Source: Lacinutrix sp. C3R15 (GTDB lineage: Bacteria > Bacteroidota > Bacteroidia > Flavobacteriales > Flavobacteriaceae). From it: a stretch of DNA of 64,000 nt. The notes under the pieces are model-generated. The model was not told the DNA's origin and did no database searches. It saw only the letters and a list, made by a program, of their open reading frames with translations. The translations under genes and the position numbers were made by a program. The DNA lies in the NCBI RefSeq assembly GCF_018860825.1, contig NZ_JAHKPZ010000030.1, positions 349,695-413,694 of the forward strand, given 5' to 3'. Below, one piece after another: positions 3,296 through 55,431 of this stretch; within the stretch, counting starts at the first letter, position 1; each line of letters begins with the position of its first letter.

Positions 3296-3326
3296 TAAAA
3301 AAGGCTCGCAAATGCGAGCCTTTTAA
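3296..3326 (-). terminator. Rho-independent terminator of the aromatic operon
   Basis: AAGGCTCGCA and TGCGAGCCTT (3301-3324) form a GC-rich stem with a tiny loop, followed on the minus strand by a run of seven T. It lies 4 nt after the DAHP synthase-chorismate mutase stop and would separate the aromatic genes from rsgA. Confidence 0.85.
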
Positions 3327-3329
3327 TTA

Positions 3330-4412
3330 TTAAGCTTTTAAAATCTTTTCTTGATGATTTATAGACTCTTGATGAATTGCTTTAAACATACGTAAAATAA
3401 ACTCTTCACTTAATCCTTTAGACTCTCCTTCAAGAACCATTTTACCAAGAATTTCGTTCCATCGTTTGCTTTGTAAAACAGAAACATTTTTTTGCTTTTT
3501 AAGTGCGCCAATGCCATCTGCTACTTTCATTCTTTTTCCTAATAAATCAATAATTTGATTATCTACCACATCAATCTGAGCTCTTAAATTATTAAGTTCT
3601 TGGTTGTATGCAGCCTCAGGATCTGTTTCTTTTCTAATGCGTAAATCTTGCATTATTTGCACTAAAGAATCTGGTGTTACTTGTTGTGCTGCATCACTCC
3701 AAGCGTTATCTGGATCAAAGTGTGTTTCAATCATTAAACCATCAAAATTAAGATCTAATGCTGTTTGTGATACATCAAATATCATATCTCTTTTTCCTGT
3801 AATATGTGAAGGATCATTAATTAAAGGAATGTCTGGAAATCTGTTTTGAAACTCAATAGCTAATTGCCATTCTGGAATATTTCTGTATTTAGATTTTTCG
3901 TACGTAGAAAAACCTCTATGAATTGCTCCTAGGTTTTTAACACCTGCAGTATATAACCTTTCAATACCACCTAACCATAAAGATAAATCAGGATTTACCG
4001 GATTTTTTACTAGAACAATTTTATCTGTTCCTTGTAAAGCATCTGCAATTTCTTGCATGATAAATGGACTAACAGTAGAACGTGCACCTATCCATAGTAA
4101 ATCTACATCATTTTCTAATGCTAATTTTACATGCGCTGCATTAGCAACTTCTGTACAGGTTTTCATTCCTGTTTCTTCTTTTACTTTTTTTAGCCAGTTT
4201 AAACCTAATGCTCCAACACCTTCAAAATTTCCTGGTCTTGTTCTTGGTTTCCAAATTCCTGCTCTAAAGTAATTTACGTCAGTGTCTTTTAACTGATGTG
4301 CAATTTTTAAAACTTGTTCTTCTGTTTCTGCACTACATGGTCCTGCTATTACTAGTGGATGATCTAATTTCATGTCATCTAACCATGTTCTTAATTCTTT
4401 TTTGTTTTCCAT
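3330..4412 (-). CDS. Bifunctional DAHP synthase / chorismate mutase
   Basis: A 360-residue fusion. Residues about 1-255 are a type I (KDO8P-like) DAHP synthase: PLVIAGPCSAE, the AGIWKPRTRPGNFEG loop, KNPVNPD, and INDPSHITGKRD, which carries metal and substrate ligands. It condenses phosphoenolpyruvate with erythrose 4-phosphate. Residues about 270-360 are an AroQ-type chorismate mutase (LRAQIDVVDNQIIDLLGKRM), converting chorismate to prephenate. The fusion puts the first shikimate step and the branch to Phe/Tyr in one chain, where prephenate-type feedback is known for related enzymes. It is the last gene of the pheA operon before the terminator. Confidence 0.95.
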   Translation of the reverse strand: MENKKELRTWLDDMKLDHPLVIAGPCSAETEEQVLKIAHQLKDTDVNYFRAGIWKPRTRPGNFEGVGALGLNWLKKVKEETGMKTCTEVANAAHVKLALENDVDLLWIGARSTVSPFIMQEIADALQGTDKIVLVKNPVNPDLSLWLGGIERLYTAGVKNLGAIHRGFSTYEKSKYRNIPEWQLAIEFQNRFPDIPLINDPSHITGKRDMIFDVSQTALDLNFDGLMIETHFDPDNAWSDAAQQVTPDSLVQIMQDLRIRKETDPEAAYNQELNNLRAQIDVVDNQIIDLLGKRMKVADGIGALKKQKNVSVLQSKRWNEILGKMVLEGESKGLSEEFILRMFKAIHQESINHQEKILKA

Positions 4413-4507: not shown

Positions 4508-5365
4508 TTATTCTATTCCGTTTAATATGTCTTTTATTCTATTGGTGTTTTCCATTTCTTTAAAAACAGTTTCAAAATCTTCTTTCTGAATCTTTTCTTT
4601 AAAATGCGTAAGGTTGCTTATATATTCTTCTAAAGTTTCAATTACATTTTCTTTATTCTGCTTAAAAATTGGTGTCCACATAGCAGGACTACTTTTTGCC
4701 AAACGTACTGTTGAAGCAAAACCACTTCCTGCCATATCAAAAATATCGCGTTCATTATTTTCTTTATCTATTACTGTTTTTCCTAGCATAAAAGCACTAA
4801 TGTGTGATAAATGCGAAACGTAAGCAATATGTTTATCATGTGCTTCAGGATTCATATAACGAATACGCATGCCCATAATTTGAAAAATAGTTAAAGCTTT
4901 TTCTTGAAGCTTAAAGGCTGTTTTTTCTATTTCGCATATAATGTTTGTCTTGCTTTTAAAAAGACCTAACAATGCTGCTTTAGGGCCTGAAAATTCGGTT
5001 CCTGCTATAGGGTGTGTTGCCAGGAAATTTCTACGTTTTTCATGATTTTCTACTACTTTACAAATATCACTTTTAGTAGAGCCAACATCCATTACCAAAG
5101 CATCATCAGACACCAGGTCTAGTACTTCTGGTAATAATTTTACAGCTACATCTACAGGAACTGAAAGTATTACAAAATCTGCGTTTACTACATCTTTTAA
5201 TGTGGCTTTAAAATCTATAACTTTAAGTTCTAAAGCTTCTTTTAAATGTGTTGGATTAGAATCTACACCAAACAAACTAATGTTAGGATTTAAGTTTTTT
5301 ACATCTCTAGCAATGCTTCCTCCTATTAACCCTACGCCAATTACATATATATTTTTTACACTCAT
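4508..5365 (-). CDS. tyrA: Prephenate dehydrogenase
   Basis: A 285-residue TyrA. The N-terminal Rossmann fold has the dinucleotide motif GVGLIGG at residues 10-16, followed by the helical dimerisation domain with the conserved HPIAGTE and HLSH motifs. It oxidatively decarboxylates prephenate to 4-hydroxyphenylpyruvate in tyrosine synthesis. There is no fused chorismate mutase or ACT domain; the mutase is on the next gene. I use the ATG at 5363-5365 (MSVKNIYVIG), 2 nt after the aminotransferase stop; the longer upstream reading is an overlap artefact. Confidence 0.93.
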   Translation of the reverse strand: MSVKNIYVIGVGLIGGSIARDVKNLNPNISLFGVDSNPTHLKEALELKVIDFKATLKDVVNADFVILSVPVDVAVKLLPEVLDLVSDDALVMDVGSTKSDICKVVENHEKRRNFLATHPIAGTEFSGPKAALLGLFKSKTNIICEIEKTAFKLQEKALTIFQIMGMRIRYMNPEAHDKHIAYVSHLSHISAFMLGKTVIDKENNERDIFDMAGSGFASTVRLAKSSPAMWTPIFKQNKENVIETLEEYISNLTHFKEKIQKEDFETVFKEMENTNRIKDILNGIE

Positions 5366-5367
5366 AA

Positions 5368-6510
5368 TTATATTCTTGCTAGTGCTTCTTCTAATTCCTC
5401 TGTCGAAGCACACAATGAAAACCTAACGTATCCTTCTCCTTGTGTTCCAAAAATGGTTCCTGGCGCTATAAATATGTGGTTTTCTTTAAGTAACATATCT
5501 ATAAATTCTTCCGATTTAAAATGTGGTGGTAATTTTGCCCAAACAAATAATCCTGAGGCTTCTTTATTGTACGTACAATTTAAAGCATCTGCTAGTTTCC
5601 AGACTAATTCACGTCTTTTATTATACACGCTATTTAAACTATTATACCACATGGCAGAACATGTTAAAGCTTCTATTGCTCCTTTTTGTATGCCGTAAAA
5701 CATACCAGAATCCATATTACTTTTTACTTTTATTATTGCTTCTATATGTTTTGCGTTTCCTAAAACCATTCCTACTCGCCAACCAGCCATATTAAATGTT
5801 TTACTAAGGGAGTTAAGCTCTAAACAAACATCTTTGGCTTTACTAACGCTTAAAATACTTGTTGGTTTATTATTTAAAATAAAACTATATGGATTATCAT
5901 TTACTATTAAAATATCATGTTTTCTGGCAAAGGCTACAACATCTTCAAACAACTGCTGTGTAGCTTTTGTTCCTGTTGGCATATGCGGATAATTAAGCCA
6001 CATGATTTTTACTTTACTTAAATCTAATTTCTCTAATGCTTTTAAATCTGGAAGCCAACCTTTACTTTCTTCTAAATTATAATACACTGGTTTTGCTCCT
6101 AATAATTTAGTTACCGAAGCGTAAGTAGGATAACCAGGATTAGGAATAAGCACCGCATCACCTGCATTTAAAAAAGCCATAGAAATATGCATGATACCTT
6201 CTTTGCTTCCCATTAATGGTAACACTTCTGTTGTTGGGCTTACATGTACAGCAAATTGCTGGCTATAAAATTGAGTAATTGCTTCACGTAATTCTGGTAA
6301 CCCTTGATAACTTTGGTATTTATGCGCACTTGCATCTTGAAAACTGTTTGCTATTGCAGTAATCACTTTTGCTGGTGGCTGTAAATCTGGACTACCAATT
6401 CCTAAATTAATGATTGGTTTACCATTAGCTTTAAGCAAGTTTACTTCACGCAATTTTCTAGAAAAGTAGTATTCTTCTACGGTATGTAATCTATCTGCTA
6501 CTTGTATCAT
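5368..6510 (-). CDS. Class I/II aminotransferase, probably aromatic or aspartate
   Basis: A PLP fold-type I aminotransferase of 380 residues. The Schiff-base lysine is in SLSKTFNMAGWR (Lys237), and WLNYPHMPTG replaces the common NPxNPTG. Its position between pheA and tyrA, overlapping pheA by 4 nt, points to transamination of phenylpyruvate and hydroxyphenylpyruvate, the last step to Phe and Tyr. Sequence alone does not separate an aromatic aminotransferase from an aspartate or LL-diaminopimelate-type enzyme of this subgroup. Confidence 0.88.
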   Translation of the reverse strand: MIQVADRLHTVEEYYFSRKLREVNLLKANGKPIINLGIGSPDLQPPAKVITAIANSFQDASAHKYQSYQGLPELREAITQFYSQQFAVHVSPTTEVLPLMGSKEGIMHISMAFLNAGDAVLIPNPGYPTYASVTKLLGAKPVYYNLEESKGWLPDLKALEKLDLSKVKIMWLNYPHMPTGTKATQQLFEDVVAFARKHDILIVNDNPYSFILNNKPTSILSVSKAKDVCLELNSLSKTFNMAGWRVGMVLGNAKHIEAIIKVKSNMDSGMFYGIQKGAIEALTCSAMWYNSLNSVYNKRRELVWKLADALNCTYNKEASGLFVWAKLPPHFKSEEFIDMLLKENHIFIAPGTIFGTQGEGYVRFSLCASTEELEEALARI

Positions 6511-7337
6511 GATTGCTTTGCGTTTTTATATTCGCCTAATATTTTAAAATCTTGTGCCATAATTTGTAATATAGATTTTGCTTTTTTGTAATCTGCATAG
6601 GCATCAAAAGTAACATCCACAAAAAAAGCATAACTCCAAGGAGTTTCAATTTTTGGTAAGGATTGTATTTTTGTTAAACTTAACTTACAATCGCTCATTA
6701 CATTTAATATGGTTGCCAGACTTCCTCTTTTATGTTCTAACTCAAATTTTACCGAAGCTTTATTAATTTCACTTTCTGGAAATTCATGGTTTTCCCGTTT
6801 TACAATAACAAAGCGCGTTTCGTTTAGTTTTATAGTTTGAATGCTCTTTGCTAAAATGTTTAATTCAAAAATATCTGCTGCTAAAACACTTGCAATAGCT
6901 CCTACATTTTTTAATTTATTTTTATGAATTCGTTGTGCAACCTCAGCAGTATCCTTATCTTCTATTAGCTTTATGTGTGGATGCTTTTTAAAAAACTCTT
7001 TACATTGTAACAATGCCATAGGATGCGAATACACCTCTTTAATATCTGCTATACTTTGGTTTGGTAAAGCCATTAAATTGTGCTGTATATCTAAATATTT
7101 TTCGCCAACTATATGCAAATTATTATTATCAATTAAAGCATAATTTGGTATTATAGATCCTGCTATAGAGTTTTCTAAAGCCATGATTACAGCATCTACT
7201 TTTTTATCTAAAAGATTTTCAACAGTTGCATCAAAAGTCAAGCATTCTTTCACATTCATTTGATTTCCAAAATATTGCTCAGAAACAATATGATGAAAAG
7301 ACCCTTTTACTCCTTGAATTGCTACAGATTTTATCAT
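6507..7337 (-). CDS. pheA: Prephenate dehydratase with ACT domain
   Basis: A 276-residue PheA. The catalytic domain starts with GVKGSFHH (residues about 9-16) and has ALENSIAGSI and the conserved NETRFVIV motif. It is followed by a C-terminal ACT domain (residues about 195-270) with an EHKRGSLATIL motif for phenylalanine feedback. It converts prephenate to phenylpyruvate. It is the first enzyme of the operon, and its ATG follows directly on the U-run of an attenuator terminator (7338-7366). The start is fixed by that terminator and by IQGVKGSF at the expected place. Confidence 0.95.
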   Translation of the reverse strand: MIKSVAIQGVKGSFHHIVSEQYFGNQMNVKECLTFDATVENLLDKKVDAVIMALENSIAGSIIPNYALIDNNNLHIVGEKYLDIQHNLMALPNQSIADIKEVYSHPMALLQCKEFFKKHPHIKLIEDKDTAEVAQRIHKNKLKNVGAIASVLAADIFELNILAKSIQTIKLNETRFVIVKRENHEFPESEINKASVKFELEHKRGSLATILNVMSDCKLSLTKIQSLPKIETPWSYAFFVDVTFDAYADYKKAKSILQIMAQDFKILGEYKNAKQS

Positions 7338-7366
7338 AAAAAAAAAGCCTCGATATTTCGAGACTT
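7338..7366 (-). terminator. Attenuator terminator upstream of pheA
   Basis: On the minus strand AAGTCTCGA (7358-7366), loop AATA and TCGAGGCTT (7345-7353) form a 9-bp stem with one G-T pair, followed by an unbroken T run to the pheA ATG. The 5' arm GTCTCG (7359-7364) can instead pair with CGAGAC (7401-7406), which lies just after the stop codon of an aromatic-rich leader peptide. That is the arrangement of terminator and antiterminator in ribosome-dependent attenuation. Confidence 0.88.
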
Positions 7367-7410
7367 GTTGTTTAATTTATATTTAATATACATATATAAC
7401 GTCTCGCCTT

Positions 7411-7467
7411 TTATTTAAAAAAGAAATAGAACCAGCTATAAAATGTAAAATTTGTTTTCATACTCAT
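7411..7467 (-). CDS. Aromatic leader peptide of the pheA operon
   Basis: An ATG at 7465-7467 opens MSMKTNFTFYSWFYFFFK, which ends in TAA at 7411-7413. Of 18 residues, six are Phe, two Tyr and one Trp, packed into the last 12. A second ATG (7459-7461) may be the true start because the first lies only about 5 nt from the expected transcript start. It is followed by an antiterminator segment (7401-7406) and a terminator (7338-7366). Stalling at Phe or Tyr codons would free the antiterminator and allow transcription of pheA and the genes below. No peptide function beyond this is implied. Confidence 0.8.
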   Translation of the reverse strand: MSMKTNFTFYSWFYFFFK

Positions 7468-7477
7468 AATTATGTGG

Positions 7478-7507
7478 CTAATGTAATTAATTATATGAAA
7501 TAACAAA
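7478..7507 (-). promoter_or_regulatory. Probable promoter of the pheA leader
   Basis: Minus strand: TTTG (7504-7507) as -33, an 18-nt spacer after TTG, and TACATTAG (7478-7485), one mismatch from TAnnTTTG. The transcript would start near 7472, a few bases before the leader peptide. Confidence 0.5.
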
Positions 7508-11662: not shown

Positions 11663-14377
11663 TTAATCTGCTAAATTTGGATTTAACCATTTTGCAGCCT
11701 CTTCTATAGCAATATTTCTTCGCTTAGCATAAGCCTCTAACTGGTCTTGCTTTATTTTTCCTAGTCCAAAATACTTTGCTTCTGGATTTGCAAAATAATA
11801 ACCACTCACACTTGCTGCTGGCCACATAGCTAAACTTTCGGTAAGCTTCACTCCTATTTTATTTTCTACATCTAACAAGTCCCAAATAGTCTTTTTTTCT
11901 AAGTGATCTGGACAAGCAGGATAACCAGGAGCAGGACGAATACCTTTATAACTTTCTTTTATTAACTCTTGATTTGTTAGGTTTTCGTTTGCAGCATAAC
12001 TCCAATGCTTGGTTCGCACCTCTTTATGTAGGTATTCTGCAAAAGCTTCGGCTAGTCTATCTGCCAGCGCTTTTATCATAATAGAATTATAATCGTCATG
12101 CGCATCTTCAAATTGTTTTGCCAGTGCTGCAGTACCAAATCCTGTGCTCACACAAAATGCACCCATATAATCTTGTTTTCCTGTTTCTTTAGGCGCAATA
12201 AAATCGGCCAATGCAAGGTTAGGTTTTCCTGCTGCTTTTTTAGATTGTTGACGTAGGGTTAAAAATGCTAATTTATCTTCAGCGTTTATTGCTACTTCAA
12301 TATCATCATCATTAATAGTATTTGCTGGAAACAACCCAAAAACAGCTTTTGCTTTTAGTAGTTTTTCATTAAATATACGTTGCAATAGTTCTTGTGCATC
12401 TTTAAATAAATCGGTTGCCTGTTCACCAACCACTTCATCGGTTAAAATATCTGGATATTTACCATGTAAATCCCAACTTCTAAAAAATGGAGACCAATCA
12501 ATAAAGGCTTCTAATTTGGTAATATCAAAATCCTGAAGTTCTTGTATTCCTAATTGGTTTGGCTTTGTAATTTCAGAAGTATTCCAATCTATTTTAAACT
12601 TGTTCTTTCTAGCTTCTTCAATAGATAAGTATTCCTTTTTTCTGGTTCTACCTAAAAACTGTTCTCTAAATTTATCGTAGGCTTCTCGAATTTGCTCTTT
12701 ATATACCTTATTGTCTTTACTAAGTAAATCACCAACAACTGTTACCGCTCTAGATGCATCATTAATATGCACCACTGTATTACTATAATTAGGTGCAATC
12801 TTTACCGAAGTATGTGCGCGAGATGTTGTTGCTCCACCAATAATTATAGGAATAGTAACTTTCTTTTTTTCTAGCGATTTAGAAACATATACCATTTCAT
12901 CTAACGAAGGAGTTATCAATCCGCTTAAACCAATAATATCTACATTTTCTGCAATAGCAGTATCTACAATTTTTTCTGGCGGAACCATTACTCCTAAGTC
13001 AATAATTTCATAATTATTACAACCAAGAACCACGCTTACTATGTTTTTTCCAATATCATGCACATCTCCTTTTACGGTAGCCATTAATATTTTACCAGCA
13101 AACTCTTGTTTTCCGTCTTTTTCTGCTTCAATAAATGGTTGTAAATAAGCAACGGCTTTTTTCATAACTCTTGCCGATTTTACAACTTGTGGTAAGAACA
13201 TTTTACCGCTTCCAAACAAATCTCCTACTACATTCATACCAATCATTAAATGGCCTTCTATAACATCAATTGGCTTAGGTGATTCTTGTCTGGCTTCCTC
13301 TATATCTTCAATAATAAAAGCATCTAAACCTTTTACTAATGCATGTGTAATTCTTTCTTGCAACGGGTTACTTCGCCATTCTAAAACCTTAGTGACATCC
13401 TCTTTTTTATTTCCTTTAATTGTTTCGGCAAAGTCTAATAAACGTTCGGTAGCATCCTCTCTTCTATCAAATAAAACATCTTCTACATACGTTAATAAAT
13501 CTTTAGGAATTTCATCATACACCTCTAACATAGTTGGGTTCACAATACCTAAATTCATTCCATGTTGAATAGCATGATATAAAAATGCAGCATTAATAGC
13601 TTCACGCACCGTATTGTTTCCACGAAATGAAAAAGACACATTACTCACACCTCCCGAAACATTTGCATAAGGAAGATTTTCGCGAATCCATTTGGTTGCT
13701 TTAAAGAAATCTAAAGCGTTTAGTCTGTGCTCTTCCATACCTGTGGCTACAGGAAAAATATTAGGATCAAAAATGATGTCTTGTGGCGGAAAGCCAACCA
13801 CATCTACCAATATATTATATGAGCGTTCGCAGATTTCAATTCTACGTTGGTAAGTATCTGCCTGACCCTTTTCATCAAAAGCCATAACAATGACAGCAGC
13901 GCCATAACGTTTTACCAATTTTGCTTGACGTATAAATTCGGTTTCCCCTTCTTTTAAACTTATAGAATTTACTACACATTTACCTTGTGCTACTTGCAAA
14001 CCTGCCTCAATAATTTCCCATTTCGAGCTATCTATCATGATGGGCACTCTAGAGATATCTGGCTCAGAAGCAATCAGGTTTAAAAAAGTGGTCATGGCAT
14101 ACTTTCCGTCTAGCATACCTTCATCCATATTAACATCAATAATTTGTGCTCCTCCTTCTACCTGATCTCTTGCTACACTTAATGCTTCGTCGTATTTTTC
14201 TTCTTTAATTAAACGTAAAAACTTACGAGATCCTGTAACATTGGTACGTTCTCCAACATTAATAAAATTACTTTCAGGAGTAACCACTAAAGGCTCTAAA
14301 CCTGATAAGGTTAAATACTTTTTGGTTTCTAGTTTTTGGTTTCTAGTTTTTAGTTCTTTATTTTGATTATCAATCAT
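11663..14377 (-). CDS. metH: Methionine synthase, folate/B12/reactivation part (split MetH)
   Basis: A 904-residue chain holding three MetH modules. Pterin-binding is at about 35-300 ([13 protein letters not shown]), the cap and cobalamin-binding modules at about 340-570 ([10 protein letters not shown], with the cobalt-ligand His), and the SAM-binding reactivation domain at about 590-900 ([12 protein letters not shown]). The homocysteine-binding module is on the separate upstream gene, a split usual in flavobacteria. The protein transfers methyl from methyl-THF to homocysteine through cobalamin. Residues about 5-19 are encoded by a repeat that flanks a decayed IVP gene, so the true ancestral start is nearer KKYLTLSG. 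Confidence 0.95.
14319..14346. repeat. Tandem 14-bp repeat inside the metH start
   Basis: The 14-mer TTTTTGGTTTCTAG occurs twice in exact tandem (14319-14332 and 14333-14346), followed by a partial third unit. It encodes much of the odd metH N-terminus. A related, inverted version lies at 14724-14753 on the other side of the IVP remnant. Confidence 0.75.
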
Positions 14378-14723: not shown

Positions 14724-14753
14724 AAAAACCAAAAAACTAGTAACTAGCAACTA
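14724..14753. repeat. Inverted partner of the IVP-flanking repeat
   Basis: AAAAACCAAAAAACTAG followed by TAACTAGCAACTA is the reverse-complement style of the CTAGTTTTTGG motif at 14319-14353. It overlaps the last codons of the upstream homocysteine methyltransferase gene and supplies its final residues, IVASY. Confidence 0.65.
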
Positions 14754-15738
14754 TTCGCCTAGGTTTATACTTTTTTGCAACCTCTGCAATAGCTTTAATA
14801 TGCTCTGGACTAGTACCACAGCAACCTCCAATAATATTTATTAAATTATCTTGTAAATATTCTTCAATAAATGCTTGCATCTCTTTTGGTGTTTGGTCAT
14901 ACTCACCAAACGCATTTGGCAATCCTGCATTTGGATGTGCAGAAGTAAAAAATTCTGTATTGTCTGATAAGCGTTGTAAATACGGTTTTAATTGTTCTGC
15001 TCCTAAAGCGCAATTAAAACCAACACTTAATAAAGGTATATGCGAAATAGAAGTTAAAAACGCCTCTACTGTTTGACCAGATAAGGTTCTACCTGAAGCA
15101 TCTGTAATGGTACCAGAAACCATGATTGGAATATCTATATTACGCTCTTCTTTTACTTCTTCAATAGCAAACAATGCTGCTTTAGCATTAAGAGTATCAA
15201 AAATAGTTTCTACTAAAAGTAAGTCTACTCCTCCATCTATTAAAGCTTCTACTTGTTGCTTGTAGGCAATACGTAACTCTTCAAAAGTAATAGCTCTGTA
15301 TTCTGGTCTGTTTACATCTGGAGATAAACTAGCTGTACGGTTTGTTGGACCAATACTTCCGGCTACAAAACGCGGCTTATCTGGATTTTGTTTTGTGAAC
15401 TCTTCTGCAACTTTCTTTGCTATTTTTGCAGACTCATAATTTAGCTCGTATACTAAATCTTCCATATTGTAATCTGCCATGGCTATTGTGGTTCCAGAAA
15501 AAGTATTGGTTTCTACAATATCTGCTCCTGCTTCAAAATATTTAGCGTGAATAGTAGCTATGGCTTCTGGTTGGGTTAGCGACAGTAAATCGTTATTTCC
15601 TTTTAAAGAAGTTGGGTAATCTTTAAAGCGTTCACCACGAAAATCTTCTTCGGTAAAATTATACTGCTGTAGCATGGTGCCCATGGCACCATCTAGCACT
15701 AATATATGTTGTTGTAATATTTGATTTATGTTTGACAT
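14737..15738 (-). CDS. Homocysteine S-methyltransferase module of split methionine synthase
   Basis: A 333-residue protein equal to the N-terminal homocysteine/zinc module of MetH. It has [12 protein letters not shown], the ETNTFSGT motif, the zinc ligand Cys in FNCALG, and the paired Cys in [11 protein letters not shown]. It acts with the downstream cobalamin chain to methylate homocysteine. It directly follows a SAM-I riboswitch. The last codons are built from a repeat, so the C-terminus probably differs from relatives. Confidence 0.93.
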
Positions 15739-15792
15739 ATTATATTAAATTATATAAATGTCATCAGGAAGGGAAGTAAGAGAATTACTTAG

Positions 15793-15904
15793 GTTATCTG
15801 TCTGATTACTGAAAACTCAGTAAAAAGTAGAATTTAGCACCTTCTTTTTAATAAAGGGTTGCCAAGGCTTCAATGGGTCTATTCCCTCTGCCTTTCGTGA
15901 TAAC
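15793..15904 (-). ncRNA. SAM-I riboswitch (S-box) upstream of split metH
   Basis: Minus strand: P1 is formed by GTTATC (15899-15904) and GATAAC (15793-15798). The core shows CGAAAGGCAGAGGG, a P2/P3 region ending GCCTTGGCAACC, the diagnostic AAGGTGCTAAATTC, and a P4 hairpin ACTGA/TCAGT. S-adenosylmethionine binding normally turns off the downstream gene. A hairpin AAGTAA/TTACTT (15774-15790) follows P1 directly, but without a U run, so the expression platform is unclear. The rest of the 258-nt gap (to 15996) shows no gene. Confidence 0.95.
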
Positions 15905-15996
15905 ATTCAATACGATTATGAACAAATACCTTTTATTTTTAATAAATAAAATGATATAAAGTGTAAAATAACAGAATAAAAATAGGATAACCAATT

Positions 15997-29405: not shown

Positions 29406-29410
29406 ATTTG

Positions 29411-29531
29411 AGTTATCTATCCAATATATCGATTAATGAATCGAAAATTAAGTAGAATTTAGCACCTTCATAGTAAATCTAAGGGTTGCTAAGGCTTCGT
29501 CGAGTCTATCTCTCCACCTTTCTTGATAACA
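29411..29531 (-). ncRNA. SAM-I riboswitch (S-box) upstream of metY
   Basis: Minus strand P1 is GTTATC (29525-29530) with GATAAC (29412-29417). The core shows AAGAAAGGTGGAGAG, GACGAAGCCTTAGCAACC, the AAGGTGCTAAATTC block and a P4 stem TCGAT/ATCGA. It matches the SAM-I consensus closely. It would lower expression of metY and probably the metX fusion when SAM is high. The 351-nt gap 29289-29639 otherwise holds a promoter-like site (29561-29592) and no gene. Confidence 0.95.
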
Positions 29532-29560
29532 TTTCAGTAAGTGTTTGAACTTTGTGAGCA

Positions 29561-54574: not shown

Positions 54575-55431
54575 TATAATACCATTTTATCAATTGGAAC
54601 GACTAAAATACCTTCTGCTCCAGCATTTTTTAAGGCATCAATATTATTCCAGAATTTATCTTCATCTATTACAGAGTGTAGGGAGCTCCAGCCTTCTTGG
54701 GCCAACGGAAGAATGGTTGGACTTTTTAACACTGGAAGAATTGCCGCTACCTCATCAATTTTATCATTTGGTACATTCATTAACACATATCGTGTATTTT
54801 TTGCACGTAGCACTGCTTGAATTCTAAATATTAATTTAGTTAAAATGGCTTCTTTTTCAGCATCTAGATTAATATTTTTTGCTAAAACAGCTTCCGATTT
54901 TAAAATAACTTGCGTTTCTCTTAATCCGTTTTTAAACAAGGTACTTCCTGAACTCACAATATCACAAACACCATCTGCCAACCCTATATTTGGAGCTATT
55001 TCAACAGAACCAGAAATAACATGAATATCTGCTTCTATATTATTTTCTTTTAAATAAGCATTAAGTGTGTTTGGGTAGGATGTTGCTATTTTTTTATCCT
55101 TAAAATAAGAAACTTCATTAGATTCAATTCTTTTAGGCACTGCTAAAGAAACTCTACATTTTGCGAAGCCTAATTTTTCTACTATTTCAGATTCTTTTTG
55201 TTTTTCGATTAAGATGTTTTCTCCAATAATAGCAATATCTACCACTCCATCTTCTATGTACTGCGGAATATCGGAATTACGCAAATACAAAACCTCTATA
55301 GGAAAGTTTCTGGCAGCAACTTTTAATTGGTCTTTACCATTATCAATTTTTATTCCACAATCTTTTAAAAGTTTTAAAGAATCTTCGTTTAATCTTCCGC
55401 TTTTTTGAATGGCAATTTTTAGTGTACTCAT
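54574..55431 (-). CDS. hisG: ATP phosphoribosyltransferase, long form
   Basis: A 285-residue HisG-L: IAIQKSGRLNEDSLKLL, the GLADGVCDIVSSGSTL PRPP loop, and a C-terminal ACT-like regulatory domain (about 210-285) that gives histidine feedback without HisZ. It does the first committed step. It is the first structural gene of the operon, 45 nt after the attenuator stem. Confidence 0.97.
   Translation of the reverse strand: MSTLKIAIQKSGRLNEDSLKLLKDCGIKIDNGKDQLKVAARNFPIEVLYLRNSDIPQYIEDGVVDIAIIGENILIEKQKESEIVEKLGFAKCRVSLAVPKRIESNEVSYFKDKKIATSYPNTLNAYLKENNIEADIHVISGSVEIAPNIGLADGVCDIVSSGSTLFKNGLRETQVILKSEAVLAKNINLDAEKEAILTKLIFRIQAVLRAKNTRYVLMNVPNDKIDEVAAILPVLKSPTILPLAQEGWSSLHSVIDEDKFWNNIDALKNAGAEGILVVPIDKMVL

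Follow-up and report, generated by a model that had tools for sequence, protein, structure and literature searches.

A putative leader-peptide attenuator reading phenylalanine and tyrosine codons ahead of the pheA operon in Lacinutrix and its relatives

Genes and leader elements at the pheA locus

We analyzed a 64,000-nt stretch of the genome of Lacinutrix sp. C3R15 (contig NZ_JAHKPZ010000030.1, Flavobacteriaceae; hereafter the window), whose minus strand carries pheA, three further genes and, directly upstream of pheA, a series of leader elements. These features are, in the direction of transcription:

7478..7507, minus strand: probable Bacteroidota -33/-7 promoter, with TTTG at 7507-7504, an 18-nt spacer and TACATTAG at 7485-7478
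7411..7467, minus strand: leader peptide ORF, MSMKTNFTFYSWFYFFFK*; another ATG lies in frame at 7461-7459
7417..7431, minus strand: control codons, final run F-Y-F-F-F, the expected stall site under Phe or Tyr shortage
7401..7406, minus strand: region 2, CGAGAC, 5' arm of the antiterminator and exact complement of 7364-7359
7359..7364, minus strand: region 3, GTCTCG, common to the antiterminator (with region 2) and the terminator (with region 4)
7345..7366, minus strand: intrinsic terminator hairpin AAGTCTCGA-AATA-TCGAGGCTT, whose 5' arm holds the GTCTCG of 7364-7359
7347..7352, minus strand: region 4, CGAGGC, 3' arm of the terminator
7338..7346, minus strand: nine-T tract abutting the pheA ATG (7337), its first two Ts also pairing in the hairpin
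6507..7337, minus strand: pheA, prephenate dehydratase (PF00800, E 1e-53)
5368..6510, minus strand: class I/II aminotransferase (PF00155, E 1.6e-63), overlapping the end of pheA
4508..5368, minus strand: tyrA, prephenate dehydrogenase (PF02153 and PF20463; NF006307 above cut-off)
3330..4412, minus strand: DAHP synthase/chorismate mutase fusion (PF00793 and PF01817 above cut-off)
3299..3324, minus strand: terminator-like hairpin at the operon end, 11 pairs, 6 of them G-C, with a T-rich tail

The four genes from pheA to the DAHP synthase/chorismate mutase fusion probably form one operon, and in the long relative sequences the same partners lie downstream of pheA on the same strand (aminotransferase in 66/66, tyrA in 66/66 and DAHP synthase in 65/66). 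Against the NCBIfam models, pheA scores below the prephenate dehydratase cut-offs (best 187.7 of 219 bits), and the fusion matches the DAHP synthase models below theirs. Because the genome's other PF00793 gene encodes a KDO8P synthase and a family search found no PF01474 there, the fusion is the only DAHP synthase recognised in this genome. The initial annotation had proposed that control of pheA might also set the flow into shikimate; the gene content fits this reach, with the DAHP synthase/chorismate mutase as fourth gene, and the anatomy suggests that a switch ahead of pheA would set entry into the whole aromatic pathway.

Upstream of pheA, promoter, leader, antiterminator and terminator follow one another on the minus strand in the order that the initial annotation had given, the promoter being a probable one assigned by its likeness to TTTG...TAnnTTTG, which we take to be the Bacteroidota -33/-7 consensus. 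Translation of 7467-7411 likewise returns the leader that had been read there, with six Phe, two Tyr and one Trp among its 18 residues, and its stop codon (7413-7411) is followed by AAGG and then by CGAGAC. The proposed pairing of this CGAGAC with the 5' arm of the terminator joins two exact complements, and the T run does lead straight into the pheA ATG.

The elements differ in how far they stand out within this single sequence. The terminator (35 nt) folds at -11.1 kcal/mol with a z-score of -5.99, equaled by 0 of 200 shuffles, whereas the antiterminator segment (7406-7359) reaches a minimum of -6.9 kcal/mol (centroid -5.9) with a z-score of -1.59, equaled by 14 of 200, and the entire 144-nt leader has a z-score of -0.98, equaled by 32 of 200. 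Since the terminator is the stronger of the two hairpins, readthrough would depend on folding order. The antiterminator pairing itself was attained by shuffled spacers in 2 of 200 cases. A simple terminator scan over 16 kb proves nothing by itself, because it finds 9 sites where shuffles give 7.3. On the window sequence alone the antiterminator is the weaker evidence, and it is the comparison of loci that decides.

Conservation of the leader and of its two pairings

For this comparison we assembled 110 pheA loci with 103 distinct upstream regions, 30 of the loci coming from related genomes (the best 30 matches, with 44 of 60 genomes matched) and 80 from contigs that are nearly all Flavobacteriaceae (the best 80 of 150 relatives). 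A part-finding script located all three parts, aromatic leader ORF, terminator and complementary region 2, in 106 of the 110, and from these 106 we drew 49 non-redundant loci (similarity ratio <0.85); every count given here, whether of leaders, pairings, swaps or codon pairs, includes related loci that are not independent of one another. L013 and L053 carry leader and terminator farther upstream of pheA, the contig of L033 ends 150 nt before pheA but still shows a CGAGAT segment and a terminator, and the 1494 nt upstream of pheA in L026 contain no aromatic leader. Leaders with at least seven aromatic residues in ten were found in 103 of the 110 real upstream regions; the controls gave 3 among 980 shuffles of such regions and 5 among 824 stretches taken from elsewhere in these loci. 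Of the 49 non-redundant loci, 45 have a TAnnTT[TA]G box in the 55 nt that precede the leader ATG, versus 283 of 2450 shuffles.

In four loci (L013, L049, L053 and L056, from Gelidibacter and one related genome), we also observed GC-rich palindromes of the AATCCCGCC-GAAA-GGCGGGAT type repeated between the attenuator and pheA.

The arm shared by both hairpins takes eight core sequences among the 49 loci, namely GTCTCG (31), GTCCCG (6), GCCTCG, GTCCTG and ATCCCG (3 each), and GTTCCG, TCCCCG and GTCTCA (1 each), and regions 2 and 4 vary in concert with it across lineages. The helix register for this comparison was picked by best pairing and is thus biased towards pairing; the shuffle and swap controls rerun the identical search on shuffled or swapped pieces. 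Each spacer was paired with its own arm and with that of another class; of 1374 such swaps, 1284 favored the own arm, 46 the foreign arm and 44 neither. Shuffled spacers attained the antiterminator helix seen in the real loci in 173 of 4900 trials over the 49 loci. Weak single-locus antiterminators do exist, with up to 56 of 100 shuffles as good. RNAalifold returned the terminator as the sole consensus structure, with 7 of its 9 pairs changed on both sides in at least one sequence. The initial annotation had looked to close relatives for the leader and the alternative pairing, and to both stems for covariation; the leader and pairing are conserved there by the script counts and the swap and shuffle controls, and the stems covary, one by the swaps and the other by its doubly changed pairs.

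Amino acids sensed and position of the ribosome

Phe and Tyr are present in all 49 non-redundant leaders (means of 5.3 and 3.6 per leader), including the conserved Phe codons that had been expected at the outset. When we consider the last five control codons of each leader, 237 of 245 encode F or Y, the 8 exceptions being 3 N and one each of H, S, V, I and W. Over the last ten codons of 273 related pairs, we counted 1131 codon differences, comprising among others 247 F-Y exchanges and 370 synonymous changes, together more than half of the total, and 226 changes between aromatic and non-aromatic residues. The short ORF is thereby rich in codons for amino acids that the operon makes, and the signal conserved in these leader sequences is Phe plus Tyr, which fits the genes of the operon (prephenate dehydratase, aminotransferase, prephenate dehydrogenase and DAHP synthase/chorismate mutase).

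The initial annotation had gone further and held that all three aromatic amino acids are sampled. A general aromatic sensor of this kind, in which Trp would be read along with Phe and Tyr ahead of an operon holding the only recognised DAHP synthase, could draw on the one Trp codon of the window leader, where a stalled ribosome would likewise expose region 2, and on the presence of Trp in 30 of the 49 leaders, 13 of which carry it at the sixth control codon from the end, though it is common at no other of the last six. However, 19 of the 49 leaders are without Trp, a single one has it twice, one leader of the 49 carries it among the five final control codons, and trpE has a separate leader with WWW. 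We therefore consider general aromatic sensing unlikely, and leader composition rules out Trp as an equal signal, so that Phe and Tyr stand from the original claim and Trp does not stand beside them.

We evaluated the placement of the control codons using an assumed ribosome footprint that, counted from the first base of the A site, reaches 18 nt upstream and 12 nt downstream. Across the 49 loci, the start of region 2 lies a median of 10 nt past the last aromatic codon (4 to 13 overall, 9 to 11 for the middle half), and in the window it begins 10 nt past the last Phe codon. With this footprint, a ribosome on the last aromatic codon would leave all of region 2 free in 29 of the 49 loci and half or more of it free in 47, and would already cover it in 1, while in all 49 no fewer than four of the six final aromatic codons would leave it wholly free. 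A ribosome of the same assumed size at the stop codon would cover half or more of region 2 in 48 of the 49 loci (42 fully), compared with 1584 of 2450 shuffled spacers. In the window, the footprint leaves region 2 free with the ribosome on any aromatic codon and covers it fully from the stop codon. The stop codon itself lies before, inside or after region 2 in 1, 6 and 42 of the 49 loci (11, 17 and 78 of the 106), the window having it before. Since the footprint results hold whatever the placement of the stop codon, ribosome position alone could choose between the two hairpins; the antiterminator is mutually exclusive with the terminator and, for a footprint of the assumed size, sits where ribosome position would decide.

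In the four-segment model of E. coli, a helix 1:2 between the leader and the antiterminator segment acts as protector and pause helix. Contiguous pairing reveals no conserved leader-to-region-2 helix among the 49 loci (2409 of 4900 shuffles are as good), and 5 of 49 loci come out at the 5% level or lower in a duplex test. On the other side, the stretch from leader to region 2 folds slightly more stably than its shuffles do (mean z -0.97), and such a helix may exist in a few loci (L077, L089, L027, L008 and L042). With no excess of leader-to-region-2 pairing over shuffles, the element falls outside the E. coli four-segment subtype, and we count against attenuation that there is no conserved helix to pause the polymerase and hold it in step with the ribosome.

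Weighing these observations together, we assign a probability of about 0.93 to the reading that the pheA element would be a ribosome-mediated transcription attenuator sensing charged tRNA-Phe and tRNA-Tyr. Its core, a ribosome-dependent attenuator of the pheA operon, was already the reading of the initial annotation, and conservation of the leader and of the pairings strongly supports it. RNA polymerase would start a few bases upstream of the leader ATG with a ribosome following. When Phe and Tyr are ample, the ribosome would traverse the aromatic codons to the stop codon and mask region 2, upon which regions 3 and 4 would pair, the terminator would form and transcription would stop at the T tract before pheA. 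When Phe or Tyr is scarce, the ribosome would stall within the aromatic run and leave region 2 exposed; region 2 would then capture region 3, no terminator would form, and pheA - aminotransferase - tyrA - DAHP synthase/chorismate mutase would be transcribed.

An intrinsic terminator lies between the leader and the first gene, and its position bears on a reading in which control would be translational, the hairpin hiding the pheA start codon until a ribosome on the leader opens it. The window would suit such an arrangement, its hairpin ending 7 nt before the ATG, but the distance from hairpin to pheA start ranges from 5 to 178 nt across 106 loci, and every hairpin has at least six Ts in the eight nucleotides after the stem (a tail that was itself a search condition), which makes translational control very improbable. 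We give slightly less weight still to a TnaC-like arrest, in which a free aromatic amino acid would cause the nascent peptide to stall the ribosome: the leader peptide is indeed short with a conserved aromatic run, yet the peptide varies outside that run, F-Y exchanges are common within its last ten codons (among non-independent pairs), and the stop codon changes sides of region 2 from lineage to lineage. An unregulated terminator next to an accidental ORF, conceivable in an AT-rich region where T-rich ORFs encode Phe and terminator-like sites are hardly rarer in shuffles, can be dismissed, as it is contradicted by conservation and by the shuffle, swap and footprint controls on leader and pairing.

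Distribution and comparison with known systems

A covariance model of the element matched 250 of 299 sampled genomes of the family, covering 175 of 203 genera, with one match per genome among the matches listed. In 26 genomes compared by eye, all 26 model matches lie directly upstream of pheA, at a distance of about 500 nt in one genome (G019) and of less than 180 nt in the other 25. The Lacinutrix genome itself has a single convincing match at 84.8 bits, the other 33 listed scoring at most 39 bits. No match was found in 49 of the 299 genomes, and some of these misses reflect low sensitivity of the model, because leader and terminator are present in two of these genomes, G010 and G018 (L111 and L120).

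Looking farther afield, we examined 60 further upstream regions that were hand-picked with a leaning to better-scoring matches, so that the rates among them are no unbiased census. Leaders with at least six aromatic residues in ten occur in 47 of these 60 hand-picked regions, compared with 15 of 600 shuffles, and are spread over further Flavobacteriaceae (13/13), other Flavobacteriales (5/7), other families of the class (26/31) and other classes (3/9). A terminator follows the aromatic leader in 44 of the 47 hand-picked loci. For 41 of the 44, no more than 5 of 50 shuffles match the region-2 pairing, the remaining three being L146 (21), L160 (12) and L164 (20). The three out-of-class leaders (L162, L163 and L164, from genomes G213, G072 and G124) belong to other classes of the phylum, in which six others examined are without a leader. 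In the genomes with these leaders, PheA scores like that of class Bacteroidia (E 1.4e-87, 3.1e-85 and 2.5e-81), which suggests that pheA may have been transferred to other classes together with its switch.

Leaders of the same general design were also found ahead of other amino acid operons in this genome. One lies in the window itself:

55597-55535, minus strand: His leader peptide MTFIQLHHHHFHICIQANRN, followed by a terminator ahead of hisG, which starts at 55431

Within this region (55597-55431, minus strand), an antiterminator segment ATTCAGGCG has a pairing that is attained in 2 of 200 shuffles, and by its sequence the hisG region is a second predicted leader-peptide attenuator in the window. 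Ahead of trpE (L173), a leader MNIFLNNTWWWNSRKTIFVN with WWW lies 215 to 152 nt before the start and is accompanied by a strong terminator; its candidate antiterminator extends into the terminator loop (GTGAA/TTCAC), with 25 of 200 shuffles as good, so that one sequence does not set it apart from chance. Likewise, ilvD (L175) has an Ile-rich leader MKKQIINIISIIRIVIIPRSQGML 338 to 263 nt before its start and a terminator ending about 211 nt before the gene, with an antiterminator pairing reached by 32 of 200 shuffles, again not set apart from chance by one sequence. The window additionally holds two SAM riboswitches (RF00162) on the minus strand, at 15791-15906 and 29410-29532, the former upstream of ORFs 14737-15738 and 11663-14377, which we take to be a split methionine synthase.

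Together, these results raise the tentative possibility, to which we give somewhat less than even odds, that a Phe-plus-Tyr attenuator lacking a protector or pause hairpin is an ancestral and near-universal control of entry into the whole aromatic pathway in class Bacteroidia, one of a phe/his/trp/ilv set and occasionally moved with pheA. If such a protector-less attenuator exists, ribosome and polymerase would need other means of staying in step. An attenuator ahead of pheA in most sampled Flavobacteriaceae and many Bacteroidia would be a core regulatory device, a reading that also leans on the fact that it apparently governs the one DAHP synthase recognised in this genome. It would imply tight coupling of leader translation and transcription in this group, and the model makes sharp predictions that are open to test in any culturable genus.

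Attenuation of pheA by a leader peptide is familiar from the pheA/pheL system of E. coli. The Rfam family RF01859 (Phe_leader, pheA/pheL of gammaproteobacteria) likewise combines a Phe-rich leader, an antiterminator and a terminator ahead of the prephenate dehydratase gene, and it gives a full-length, same-strand match at our pheA locus with 29.8 bits (E 0.0032 in a 321-nt search). This lies below the gathering score of 55, and the element is unlisted at the gathering threshold, so we do not assign it to RF01859; the bias of the match amounts to 13.4 bits, and the long stem of the model has broken pairs. Twelve relatives scanned whole gave one RF01859 match at E up to 1 (L061, 30 bits). In contrast to RF01859, the window element has Tyr as a second conserved signal and stands before a different operon. 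Among the Rfam matches at the pheA locus, none is to a riboswitch or T-box model.

With attenuators of the trp/his/ilv type the pheA element shares its working principle, and it differs from them in that no conserved leader-to-region-2 helix was found at pheA. Attenuators in Bacteroidetes may be among the predictions of Lopatovskaya and others from 2010 (Mol Biol 44:128). PMC2965389 (2010) presents its own Firmicutes case as the first to be shown beyond Proteobacteria and Actinobacteria. For Flavobacterium psychrophilum, the section of PMC9723704 (2021) on such elements describes a structured pheA 5' element, conserved in other genera of Flavobacteriaceae and without an Rfam match, and also finds strong clues that amino-acid operons are preceded by leader-peptide attenuators. 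That pheA element concerns the same gene in the same family as ours; the section does not explicitly count it among the leader-peptide cases and gives neither the leader sequence nor the two pairings and stays within the family, although the supplements may hold more. Because PMC9723704 printed in that section both the pheA 5' element and the leader-peptide clues, we regard the kind as already known and the pheA element as already noted in the family. New here are the anatomy, the coupled pairings, the Phe-plus-Tyr specificity, a protector helix apparently missing and a broader distribution, for which our literature search, with many subscription papers outside it, found no paper. The attenuation principle itself is textbook, little documented in this bacterial group and widespread there.
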